Notes under the pieces: generated by a model
Told to the model about the DNA's origin: nothing
The model's database searches: none
Seen by the model: the letters and a program-made list of their open reading frames with translations, nothing else
In this document: positions 59,668 through 63,016 of the stretch, piece by piece
Layout: each line of letters opens with the position of its first letter
Position numbering within the stretch: position 1 is the stretch's first letter
Program-made: the position numbers and the translations under genes
Source of the DNA: Acidimicrobiia bacterium
Lineage (GTDB): Bacteria; Actinomycetota; Acidimicrobiia; Acidimicrobiales; Bin134
Direction: 5' to 3'
NCBI GenBank assembly: GCA_009843865.1
Contig: VYCQ01000021.1
Span: 1-64,000 of the forward strand
Length of the DNA stretch: 64,000 nt

Positions 59668-60069
59668 TTAATCCAATTCCACTGGCACCAAATACACCCG
59701 GCGCTCCGGTTCCACCATCCCCAAGCTATTAATCGCCACCGTCACGACCCGCTCCGGTGCCTCAGCCCTAGCCACGTTCAGTCGCAGCTTATCGTTCACC
59801 GCACGCACGTCTTCTAGCTCATTATTAACGTCATCTAAGTTGGTCTGACGATCCACAATCACAGCTTGAAGCGTGGCCAAAGCAAATAAAACTACGACTG
59901 CGGTGATCACCGCCACCCAACCCAAAGTTGGCACCAACCGACGTGTTGACACCGCGGCCAGACGCAAATGACTATCGTGGCGGGGCGACTGCGGAATGCC
60001 ATGCTGGGGTGCTACACGATAGCCCCGTTTAGGTTGCTCAAGAGGCACTGAAGCTGGTGCTGGCATCAC
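59668..60069 (-). CDS. ftsL: FtsL-like bitopic cell division protein
   Basis: 133 residues: a 45-residue basic cytoplasmic part, one membrane helix (LGWVAVITAVVVLFALATLQ) and a short extracellular coiled coil (DRQTNLDDVNNELEDVRAVN). Sequence conservation in FtsL is poor; assignment comes from topology and its position between rsmH and ftsI. It overlaps the rsmH stop by four bases (GTGA). Confidence 0.8.
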   Translation of the reverse strand: MMPAPASVPLEQPKRGYRVAPQHGIPQSPRHDSHLRLAAVSTRRLVPTLGWVAVITAVVVLFALATLQAVIVDRQTNLDDVNNELEDVRAVNDKLRLNVARAEAPERVVTVAINSLGMVEPERRVYLVPVELD

Positions 60070-61052
60070 ACTGCTCGCTCGTTGTTTGCTAGCTTACGAA
60101 AAGCCCGCAGACGCGCACTAGATGCCCTGGGATTGCGGCTAATCTCAGATGCGCTGGGCTGACAGCTCCTACGGGACACAAGCTCAATAGCTGGCGGGTG
60201 CAGGTTTGTAGCACGGGGCAATCCTCGAAACCTGCTCGGATCGCTCAGACCAGCCAAGTTGCATAAGGTTTGCTTCACGATGCGATCTTCGCCACTGTGG
60301 TAGCTGATGAGTGCCCCTGTTGCGTCGGGCACCATACGAGCGACCACTTCTTGCAGCGCTAAAGGGATTTGAGATAGCTCGTCATTAACCGCAATGCGAA
60401 TGGCTTGGAAAGTGCGCTTAGCGGGATGGCCCCCCTTACGTCGTGCTGGAGCGGGAATAGCCTCGCGGATCACCTCTGCTAGCGCTAGCGTGCCCCTAAT
60501 TGGTCTAGCCGAAACAACGGCCATAGCAATACGCCTGGCATAACGCTCATCGCTATAAAAAGCGATAATTCTGGCTAGCTCTTGTGCGGTCCAGCCATTC
60601 ACAATGTCATTGGCCGACAGTGTTTGGCTGCGGTCCATCCGCATATCTAACGGACCATCATGGCGATAGCTAAAACCCCTAGCTGGGTTGTCTAACTGCG
60701 GAGAACTGACACCTAAATCAAACAGACAACCCGCTACCTCACCTATACCCAAGGAACCTAAGGTCTCACCGATCTCAGCAAAGTTGGCGTGCGCCACGGT
60801 GGCATCCAAGCCCGCTAATGCAATCGATGCTGCTGTGGTTGCTATGAGATCGCGGTCAAGCCCAACCAAAGAGATATCCGCTCGAGCTTGCAAAATTGCC
60901 TGCGCATGCCCTGCCCCTCCCACAGTGGCATCCACAATCATTCCCGATGGAGCCTTTAATAAGTGTCGCAGCACCTCATCTAGCATCACGGGGTGATGAA
61001 CAAAGCCACCGTTAAAACTAGCCTCAGAACTAGCAGGTTTCTGCCGATTCAT
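60066..61052 (-). CDS. rsmH: 16S rRNA (cytosine1402-N4)-methyltransferase
   Basis: 328 residues from ATG 61052 (MNRQKPASSEASFNGGF); ATG 61061 three codons earlier is equally possible. HHPVMLDEVL, the SAM loop VDATVGGAGHAQAIL, GCLFDLGVSSPQLDNPARGF and the final RSCQPSASEISRNPRASSAR are canonical RsmH sequence. It methylates C1402 of 16S rRNA. The frame stays open for another 220 codons upstream, but that part runs through the structured RNA and antisense-frame mraZ and has no family similarity. Confidence 0.96.
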   Translation of the reverse strand: MNRQKPASSEASFNGGFVHHPVMLDEVLRHLLKAPSGMIVDATVGGAGHAQAILQARADISLVGLDRDLIATTAASIALAGLDATVAHANFAEIGETLGSLGIGEVAGCLFDLGVSSPQLDNPARGFSYRHDGPLDMRMDRSQTLSANDIVNGWTAQELARIIAFYSDERYARRIAMAVVSARPIRGTLALAEVIREAIPAPARRKGGHPAKRTFQAIRIAVNDELSQIPLALQEVVARMVPDATGALISYHSGEDRIVKQTLCNLAGLSDPSRFRGLPRATNLHPPAIELVSRRSCQPSASEISRNPRASSARLRAFRKLANNERAV

Positions 61053-61115
61053 CCCTCTCATCTCTCTTATGATGTTGTGCCTTTTTGCACTCCTTGCTAC
61101 TAACCGGCAAGAATG

Positions 61116-61237
61116 TCGCTGATCGGCAGTCCTTCGCCCGGCGACCGCACTACGGGATTTCTCCCCGCCAGTGTCGATGGCAAGCGGGTGGAGTAGGGGC
61201 CTTCCATCTCGTCGGACGAAAGACTGCCCATCAGCGA
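61116..61237 (-). ncRNA. Structured leader upstream of rsmH, probable mraW RNA motif
   Basis: On the minus strand TCGCTGAT-G-GGCAGTC-T-TTCG pairs with CGAA-G-GACTGCC-G-ATCAGCGA: 8, 7 and 4 perfect pairs broken by two single mismatches (61217-61237 with 61116-61136). The closed 80-base loop contains further helices, for example CCCGC with GCGGG. The mraW RNA motif described from actinobacteria is a cis-regulatory structure directly 5' of mraW (rsmH), and position, strand and phylum agree. I matched it by location and strength of folding, not by aligning to the published consensus. It ends 64 bases before the rsmH start and begins 14 bases after the mraZ stop. Confidence 0.65.
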
Positions 61238-61251
61238 TTTGCCCCGCTAAA

Positions 61252-61659
61252 TCACAACCACCGGTCCATCTCGGCATTGCCCATGCTGTCTTGAAGTAAC
61301 TGCCATTGCTCCGCGTCCCAAACCTCAGCGCGGTTAAACACTCCAATGAGGGCAACCTGCTTGCCGATACCCAGCTTTTCTCGTTTAGAGGCGGGCAAAG
61401 CCAAGCGACCTTGAGCGTCAACGGTTGCGAAATCCAAATTAGCGGCAAACCATCTCTGATCATCACTAGATGCCTCTCCTGAACGAACCGCTGTCTCAAA
61501 CCTGTCAAGCGCTTTATTGGCTTCGGTGGCAGTCCAAATCCCAAGGCAGTTCTTATAAATGCCCACATACGCGCCATCCACAAGCGCCAAACGAAAAGGA
61601 GGCGGCAGCGAAAGCCGACCCTTGTCGTCAAGAGAGCGTCTGTGTTCACCGGTAAGCAC
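61252..61659 (-). CDS. mraZ: Transcriptional regulator MraZ
   Basis: 135 residues from GTG 61659 (VLTGEHRRSLDDKGRLSLPP). This matches the usual MraZ start and is preceded by GGGGGAG three bases upstream; the open frame to 61785 is not homologous. Two AbrB-like repeats contain the DKGR motif (residues about 12-15) and the second VDAQGRLALPASKREKLGI. MraZ forms a ring and controls the dcw cluster by binding its own promoter. A fitting operator array is found at 61687-61731. The gene heads the cluster on the minus strand. Confidence 0.94.
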   Translation of the reverse strand: MLTGEHRRSLDDKGRLSLPPPFRLALVDGAYVGIYKNCLGIWTATEANKALDRFETAVRSGEASSDDQRWFAANLDFATVDAQGRLALPASKREKLGIGKQVALIGVFNRAEVWDAEQWQLLQDSMGNAEMDRWL

Positions 61660-61686
61660 GTTCTCCCCCGAGGGACACTCGGTATC

Positions 61687-61731
61687 TCCCCTTTTCTCCC
61701 ATAACACCCCACAGTAACCCTTAAAACCCCA
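61687..61731 (-). promoter_or_regulatory. MraZ operator: G-tract repeats with 10-base period
   Basis: Read on the minus strand, the pentamers TGGGG (61731), AGGGT (61721), TGGGG (61711), TGGGA (61701) and GGGGA (61691) start exactly ten bases apart. Characterised MraZ boxes are TGGGN pentamers separated by five bases. The array lies 28-72 bases upstream of the mraZ start, where it would overlap the promoter and allow autorepression. Confidence 0.7.
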
Positions 61732-61809
61732 CCTTGCAACCTCCAGCAGCATTAACCGTCTCATAAACGCTGCTGCCAGCAACACCTGCTGCCAGCAAAA
61801 TCACACCCC

Positions 61810-62487
61810 TTAAGAAGGCAATGAATCCAAAAAAGCTCTATACAAATCGTCGGAATCGCTGCCAATAGACCAAACCGAGAATGCCAAACTGTCTCGCAAG
61901 CCAGCCACATACTCAGGTGCTACAGCCAAACTAGCGATCAACTCGTCTGGCGACCAGTACCTATATATAAGGCACTGAAATCGGGCAGCTAAACGGCTAC
62001 GACGCTGGCTAATCCCTACTGCCTTAGCATTACCCACCAGCACCTCTCCGGGGCCACGGCCAGCAAAACACACCAAATCCCCCCAGCGGCCTGGATCATA
62101 ACTGTCGCACACATCCACCTCGACAATGCCCAGCAACCCCAATGCCCTAGCCCAGGCATGCCCCAACCACATAGGTGCCTTGTGTACGTCATCATTCCAC
62201 AACGAATCGCCTTGCGAGATCACGACATCCACCCACAACGAGTTGGTGGGCGACAACAACACCGCTGCGCCGCCGCTGCGCCGCCGCTGTACCGCTACAG
62301 GGTTTGTCTCATCATCTAACTTCTTGGCAACCGCCTGAGTTTGCGTTGATCCCAACACCAACGCCGTATCAGTAGGCAACAACAACCACACCTGCCGCCC
62401 TGCTTCGGGGTCAGGAACTAAGCCATGCAGCTCAGCAACCTTGCCCTGATACTGCCTGATCGTCCACCCCGAAGATGTCCAACACAT
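61810..62487 (-). CDS. Lipoate-protein ligase A-like (BPL/LPL fold) protein
   Basis: 225 residues. VQRRRSGGAAVLLSPTNSLW is the RRxSGG(G/A)xV lipoate-binding loop, WVDVVI follows, and GNAKAVGISQRR carries the conserved Lys of the adenylate pocket. It probably attaches lipoate or octanoate, or belongs to a related ligase-like subgroup; the actual substrate cannot be told. It lies just upstream of mraZ on the same strand. Confidence 0.8.
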   Translation of the reverse strand: MCWTSSGWTIRQYQGKVAELHGLVPDPEAGRQVWLLLPTDTALVLGSTQTQAVAKKLDDETNPVAVQRRRSGGAAVLLSPTNSLWVDVVISQGDSLWNDDVHKAPMWLGHAWARALGLLGIVEVDVCDSYDPGRWGDLVCFAGRGPGEVLVGNAKAVGISQRRSRLAARFQCLIYRYWSPDELIASLAVAPEYVAGLRDSLAFSVWSIGSDSDDLYRAFLDSLPS

Positions 62488-62497
62488 GGCAGAATCA

Positions 62498-63016
62498 TCA
62501 CGCAGTTTGAGCTACCGACTTTGCAGAAGAAGCCAAGTAAGGCAACCAGGCCTCAGGTACATGCCCCACTGCCGAGGTTACCCATGCCGAGCGCGAGGGC
62601 TCAGCGGGGGGACGCAACAACCTCATGGGGGTCTCCGACAAAAGCCGGTCTCGCTTGGCAACATTGCAACGACGACAAGCCGCCACCACGTTATCCCAAG
62701 AATGAGCGCCACCACGGCTCTTAGGTCGTACATGATCAATGGAATCAGCACGACAACCGCAATATTGGCAACGGTACCCATCACGAGCAAAAACGCCTCG
62801 CCGACTTAACCCACCTGTGCGAAAAAACGGCACCTTCACGAAATAGCGCAGCCGCACCACTGAGGGCACGGCTAAATCTAAGCGCTCAGAACGAAACCTG
62901 TCACCCGACCCCAAAACCATCTCGGCCTTGTCAGCCAGCACCAACACCAAGGCACGACGCGATGCCACTACGCTCAAAGGCTCATAGCTCGCGTTCAACA
63001 CCAGCGCTCCGCTCAC
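62498..63016 (-). CDS. HNH endonuclease-domain protein
   Basis: 172 residues. ALVLNASYEPLSVVASRRAL opens the protein. The HNH part is DGYRCQYCG (first CxxC), SIDHVRPKSRGG (His pair), WDNVVAACRRCNVAKRD (second CxxC and Asn). Such proteins are common single-copy chromosomal genes next to the dcw cluster in actinobacteria; the role is unknown. Confidence 0.88.
   Translation of the reverse strand: MSGALVLNASYEPLSVVASRRALVLVLADKAEMVLGSGDRFRSERLDLAVPSVVRLRYFVKVPFFRTGGLSRRGVFARDGYRCQYCGCRADSIDHVRPKSRGGAHSWDNVVAACRRCNVAKRDRLLSETPMRLLRPPAEPSRSAWVTSAVGHVPEAWLPYLASSAKSVAQTA

Follow-up and report, generated by a model that had tools for sequence, protein, structure and literature searches.

A conserved structured RNA between mraZ and rsmH of Acidimicrobiia, with a probable role in gating rsmH translation

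Our analysis has shown that the gap between mraZ and rsmH in an Acidimicrobiia bacterium holds a structured RNA, located within a window of 64,000 nucleotides (the whole stretch of contig VYCQ01000021.1 that was analysed). We favor, at a probability of roughly 60%, the interpretation that it belongs to a cis-acting leader of mraZ-rsmH found throughout Acidimicrobiia, separate in sequence from the mraW RNA, in which the main stem (P1) would gate rsmH translation. The conserved structure, strand and location of this RNA were established computationally, as was the presence in P1 of an embedded rsmH start codon preceded by a purine run at many loci. From these features, the RNA probably controls the amount of RsmH made. 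Occlusion of the start codon, as modeled here, accounts for part of Acidimicrobiia and does not account for the window itself.

Results

On the minus strand of the window, the gene order is mraZ, the gap, rsmH, ftsL, a penicillin-binding protein gene and murE. The rsmH (mraW) gene (60066-61052, minus strand), encoding the 16S rRNA C1402 N4-methyltransferase, matched TIGR00006 with 287 bits (cut-off 154), and its reading frame starts at 61052 with an alternative in-frame start at 61061. mraZ (61252-61662, minus strand) has an inferred GTG start at 61662 and a stop codon that translation places at 61252-61254; its product matched TIGR00242 with 68 bits, below the cut-off of 98, and the FtsL score was likewise under its NCBIfam cut-off. 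These translations and family matches agree with the original prediction, which had put a stem between mraZ and rsmH at a distance of 14 nt from the mraZ stop codon. No promoter-like site was detected in the region of the element, and one terminator-like site was detected where 1.8 are expected by chance; judging from the sequence, co-transcription of the element with mraZ is plausible. Elsewhere in the window, a small protein (62498-63016) scored best in NCBIfam, at 46 bits and thus far under the cut-off of 175, against a part of IscB that we take to be an HNH domain, and two tandem GCGCCGCCGCT units occur at 62265-62290 within an ORF (61810-62487) that has no NCBIfam match.

Folding of the minus strand gave -76 kcal/mol for 61105-61251, compared with -53.0 +/- 4.2 kcal/mol for 200 dinucleotide shuffles (z -5.5), and -70.3 kcal/mol for the 132-nt core at 61109-61240, compared with -45.0 +/- 3.7 kcal/mol (z -6.9). 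The energy of the core was reached by 0 of 200 shuffles, in keeping with the earlier claim that the stem is far stronger than chance. The outermost pair joins 61237 with 61116, exactly as first proposed; the 19 pairs then counted were too few, as the fold gives P1 24 pairs (8 + 16, G-U counted) about one mismatch, with 3 more pairs besides. The arms of P1 lie at 61213-61237 (5' arm) and 61116-61140 (3' arm) on the minus strand. Two further hairpins are enclosed on the same strand, P2 at 61176-61208 and P3, with the loop GAGAAAU, at 61148-61173. The loop element of P2 (61183-61193, minus strand) is CUCCGCCC in most relatives and CUCCACCC in the window, with an A at 61189. In 60900-61900, no inverted repeat was reported by a repeat finder that relies on ungapped extension of exact seeds.

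Covariation, which the original prediction had named as a check, was found. An alignment (A1) was assembled from 50 sequences, namely the window and 49 relatives, using mraZ-rsmH gaps from RsmH-encoding loci and loci of the genus. The relatives were cut out around the letters CTCCGCCC, which 60 gaps possessed (49 once repeats were removed), so the invariance of the loop in A1 is true by construction. These letters are lacking in the gaps of L126 and L130 and in the window, which was placed in A1 by hand. RNAalifold predicted 35 pairs with two-sided changes in 27, and addition of four P3 pairs brought this to two-sided changes in 29 of 39 pairs. By helix, two-sided changes affect 22 of 24 pairs in P1, three of six in P2 and four of nine in P3, with 92.9% and 89.6% of cells paired in P2 and P3, respectively. 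For the 39-pair structure, 92.8% of cells in A1 are paired as opposed to at most 47.5% in slid controls. Cells with two-sided changes numbered 305 among the 50 sequences (shuffles, 95.6; slid controls, no more than 71), and the covariation score was 0.470 (shuffles, 0.199; slid controls, no more than 0.115). A covariance model (R1) matched the window, which itself belongs to the alignment of R1, over 132 nt (61109-61240) with 125.7 bits (E 4e-29) on the minus strand and 37.4 bits on the plus strand. The element in the window is a structured RNA of the minus strand.

We consider it very improbable that the repeat acts at the DNA level, as an operator or other palindrome, or that it is mobile, serves as a terminator or attenuator, or arose by chance. 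In favor of such readings, both strands do fold, and the plus strand reaches -70.6 kcal/mol; any inverted repeat folds well on either strand. Covariation that includes G-U pairs, along with the strand preference, stands against them. The sole terminator-like site lies off P1, and a terminator or promoter was rejected on the counts given above. A mobile or repeated element was rejected on the single copy in the genome, where the other eight matches listed span 14-24 nt with E values of 0.39 or worse. Within the genus, the RNA is 88-95% identical over the matched stretch; MraZ is 60-80% and RsmH 58-66% identical. A DNA search of 60 relatives gave a match at E<=0.1 in 39, including 21 of 22 genomes of the genus (the window's own genome counted), and the matches beyond the genus are partial, some being at chance level.

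R1 extends the range of the RNA well past the genus. It matched 165 of 198 Acidimicrobiia genomes, some of which supplied the relatives from which R1 was built, and 111 of the 137 of good quality. In a phylum survey, 13 of 246 genomes matched, all of them Acidimicrobiia. In f89, a family with genomes near 1 Mb, R1 matched only at E ~6e-6 to 9e-4; the RNA lies directly before rsmH in all three f89 loci inspected (L189-L191), one of which (L189) has no MraZ on the stretch examined. The 33 genomes without an R1 match, and 21 loci lacking the RNA among the 22 whose mraZ-rsmH gap is short or odd, indicate that it is dispensable or was missed there, and the latter loci suggest that it can be lost. 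None of the Rfam 15 families searched matched the RNA in the window or in the related loci, and the accessible portions of the open-access literature searched contain no report of such an RNA in Acidimicrobiia. It is a new, class-wide family of a known kind of element, its new trait being the start codon in the stem. As a side observation, an 80-nt near-perfect hairpin elsewhere in one locus (L058:437-516) matched only microRNA models, under their cut-offs.

The RNA exists as a long form (mostly 126-137 nt), which comprises P1, P2 and P3, and as a short form (98-107 nt), which is one long hairpin lacking P3. Among 66 distinct loci that were not cut out by the loop letters, MraZ is upstream in 65, RsmH is downstream in 66 (an overlap with the RNA of up to 60 nt being permitted) and both are present in 65. 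In one locus (L111), mraZ and the RNA have an ORF between them, and the RNA remains beside rsmH; this ORF (L111:349-1086) encodes 245 aa and looks by eye to be secreted. The RNA lies between -46 and 207 nt from the mraZ stop codon, with median distances of 14.5 nt for 22 short forms and 59 nt for 71 long forms, counts that still include three repeats (L143, L151 and L157). With so wide a range, coupling to mraZ through a terminating ribosome would not be general.

Both forms mostly share the loop CUCCGCCC. After the three repeats, whose RNAs are the same as those of loci already used, were removed (64/69 becoming 61/66), the letters CTCCGCCC were found in 61 and CCGCCC in 62 of the same 66 distinct loci; R1, by which these loci were found, rewards the loop letters as well. 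In same-sized flank windows (n=2407, from the set still holding the repeats), the frequencies were 0.46% and 11%, respectively. Conservation of the loop argues for a specific partner. Two pairings of the loop within the RNA were considered and rejected. Pairing with the 3' arm (GGGCGGAG in the genus) is, by eye, not kept in other families. A pseudoknot between CUCC of the loop and GGAG of P3 has nearly invariant sides, L020 has no GGAG and short forms have no P3. In a distant copy (L126:1303-1429), the loop is ACCUCCUUU, which presumably resembles the anti-Shine-Dalgarno end of 16S rRNA, and AAGGAGGU a little downstream could pair with it.

The 3' arm of P1 frequently contains a start codon. 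ATG or GTG stands at one fixed place of this arm in 48 of 91 distinct loci, with no other offset from -45 to +39 exceeding 12. With rsmH starts inferred from reading frames rather than from proteins, an in-frame rsmH start (TTG counted, no stop between) occupies this place in 39 of the 91 (39/94 before repeats were removed), comprising 20 of 23 short forms and 19 of 68 long forms. At 32 loci no other in-frame start precedes the aligned portion of RsmH. In 38 of the 39 loci, five or more consecutive purines (e.g., GGGGGG) stand just upstream on the same arm. The predicted accessibility of the start stretch was compared between 38 of the embedded loci (L159, with a TTG start, was left out) and 20 of 21 control loci without the RNA. 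The median unpaired probability was 0.06 versus 0.43, and the median opening cost was 31 versus 7.9 kcal/mol. No rsmH start is present at this place in the other 52 loci or in the window; start occlusion therefore cannot account for all that the RNA does. In the window, the place (61121-61134, minus strand) reads AAGGA and AUC, and the rsmH start is roughly 60 nt downstream in a stretch predicted to be open (unpaired probability 0.50-0.58). Six loci of the genus (L011, L012, L014, L021, L023 and L024) have AUG at the equivalent of 61121-61123, and the window, L010 and L020 have AUC instead. By eye, the AUG in the genus begins a small upstream reading frame (MSDILAV... or MGAIFI...), which closes at the rsmH start or ahead of it.

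The original prediction had called the element a probable mraW RNA, an RNA listed for Actinomycetales (Weinberg et al. 2010, PMC2864571). The Rfam model of that RNA (RF01746) did not bear this out. It gave no match to the window at its gathering score (50 bits), none in 60900-61900 up to E=10, and none in 38 related loci (18 searched up to E=3 and 20 more up to E=1). The absence of both a model match and covariation had been named in advance as grounds for abandoning the prediction; the first is what we observed, and the second is contradicted by the covariation described above. Across the phylum, RF01746 matched nine of 149 genomes, seven over the cut-off, and the Corynebacterium glutamicum control was positive.

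To place the two RNAs relative to each other, we also looked at the class of genome G153, which we take to be Actinomycetes from its RF01746 matches and from taxonomy. Of 38 loci from this class, eight (L131-L138) were fetched as RF01746 matches and 30 (L236-L265) irrespective of the RNA. The pattern [CT]TTCCCC occurs within 500 nt upstream of RsmH in 37 of the 38, by eye in a long hairpin with the loop CUUCCCC and a 5' arm that is often CUCCxCCCGCUC. Among the 30 loci fetched irrespective of the RNA, 29 have the hairpin loop, and 10 reached the RF01746 gathering score with the same tool. The hairpins of this class are of the mraW type, and most of them are missed by the Rfam model, which looks too narrow. 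Of the 37 loci found by the loop pattern, 33 were aligned (L239, L255, L260 and L265 were left out), and a wider model (R2) of this type of hairpin was built. R2 found five of six loci left out of it and, across the phylum, 17 of 246 genomes under stricter filters.

It is possible, though less likely than not, that the Acidimicrobiia RNA is an mraW RNA that diverged past the Rfam model; both would then descend from a single ancestral RNA, with the apical part remodeled in Acidimicrobiia. The two share their place between mraZ and rsmH, and both groups have a long stem and a C-rich loop, these loops being alignable by eye (ACUUCC-CCG with ACUCCGCCCG). Moreover, the best match of R1 among the 30 Actinomycetes loci (L242 1333-1437, E 0.024) is the exact stretch matched by RF01746 with 58.7 bits. 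Against common descent stand the failure of RF01746 in the window and the 38 related loci, and that of R2 in 40 sources (39 loci and the window), where no match reached E<=1 and a single match in the right place had an E value of 2.8. The remaining R1 matches on Actinomycetes hairpins had E values of 0.14 to 1.9; R1 matched one locus on both strands and another solely on the wrong strand, a pattern that a long hairpin of any kind could produce. On nine loci fetched as mraW matches, R1 gave a single match (E 0.13), which fell outside the hairpin. The RNA is the positional counterpart of mraW RNA in Acidimicrobiia and is possibly its distant homolog; a common origin is possible.

Discussion

We propose that the RNA is a cis-acting leader of its own, resembling mraW RNA in several respects. 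Both are cis-acting candidates between mraZ and rsmH with a long stem and a C-rich loop, and for neither do the accessible parts of the literature searched give a function. Nevertheless, neither group's models match the other group's RNAs at E<=0.01, and the bacterial classes differ. The mraW RNA is a single long hairpin with an apical CUUCCCC, whereas the long form in Acidimicrobiia is a three-way junction with P3, and its short forms, although single hairpins, mostly have the loop CUCCGCCC. The rsmH start codon within the stem in 39 of 91 distinct loci is another difference.

Based on the predicted accessibility of the start, we envisage that P1, on a long mraZ transcript, would prevent translation of rsmH for as long as the stem stays closed. 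Opening might be brought about by a factor that recognizes the loop, or by double-strand cleavage by an enzyme such as RNase III, and would separate the output of RsmH from that of mraZ. The arrangement is similar to leaders that occlude the ribosome-binding site, as a start codon and an upstream purine run are paired in a stem at many loci; it differs from them in that this is not so in the window's own species, and we know of no ligand or factor for the Acidimicrobiia leader. P1 is far more stable than typical switches. This speaks against a gate, since a small regulator could hardly open such a stem. In the window's species, the open start some 60 nt downstream implies that the RNA could act only indirectly (through processing, mRNA stability or factor binding) or is decaying.

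The length of P1 argues for cleavage, and it is possible, albeit on the unlikely side, that processing is the main role of the RNA. In that case RNase III would cut P1 and part the mraZ mRNA from the rsmH mRNA, and the loop and P3 would be secondary. A stem of 24 pairs with one mismatch would suit such an enzyme. RNase III needs no invariant loop, which makes the retention of CUCCGCCC in 61 of 66 distinct loci an argument against this role. In Corynebacterium, three reports are relevant here. The listed 5' end of rsmH in C. glutamicum falls within the mraW motif (PMC3890552), the motif in C. diphtheriae is upstream of the rsmH transcription start (PMC5784534), and RNase III is reported to cleave the mraZ mRNA of C. 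glutamicum (Maeda 2016, as cited in PMC8247434), although the reported cut is in the mraZ coding region and not in the gap. By analogy, the 5'-end data from Corynebacterium would fit processing of an analogous RNA, or a promoter inside it.

The gate that we favor requires something to act on the loop or the stem, and RsmH itself was considered as the partner of the loop. We regard as unlikely a self-regulation in which the loop imitates the 16S target of RsmH (CCGCCC around C1402) and bound RsmH keeps the leader closed. The best ungapped 16S match of the loop is the C1402 site in three of three 16S rRNAs (9 of 12 letters), the site being placed by 16S numbering. This match was striking by rank and was then weakened on several counts. 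Shuffles that preserve composition reached it in ~3% of cases, and 404 of 2000 had their best place at C1402, ties counted, so the C-richness of the loop explains much of the match. A place in 23S rRNA tied in one of three genomes, and the window loop CUCCACCC has an A for a G. The best 16S match of the Actinomycetes loop is not at the C1402 site, and the 300 nt preceding rsmI lack CCGCCC in six of six genomes. As judged from sequence comparison, the loop resembles the 16S target of RsmH only weakly beyond composition.

CCGCCC is also the regulatory motif of sgm, and we presume that this element is common to sgm and the loop. Two actinomycete genes for 16S methylases, sgm and kgmB, are described as being under negative translational autoregulation (PMC2791848). 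In each case, a methylase of the 16S decoding region is under suspected translational control. RsmH differs from those enzymes in being a housekeeping enzyme, in the weakness of the loop-target similarity beyond composition and in that its autoregulation is only predicted. Further evidence against mimicry comes from two reports. RsmH is reported to act on the 30S subunit but not on 16S rRNA that is free of protein (PMC5053481), and METTL15, the human ortholog of RsmH, showed no sequence specificity in its binding of h44 RNA, single-stranded RNA and poly(A) (PMC10828496). It is distinctly unlikely that a class-wide autoregulatory leader exists in which RsmH binds the CCGCCC copy in its own mRNA and locks the start in the stem. 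If this were true, autoregulation would link how much the division gene cluster produces to small ribosomal subunits that are still unfinished.

Conclusions

The mraW-type hairpin is more common than matches at the Rfam gathering score imply, given that the loop is present in 29 of 30 loci and the score was reached in 10 of 30. For Acidimicrobiia, the embedded start codon turns a vague question about an "mraW RNA" into a testable claim on rsmH translation. With this study, the class, including the f89 family with its genomes near 1 Mb, gains a structured RNA that is well supported and lies where the division gene cluster begins.
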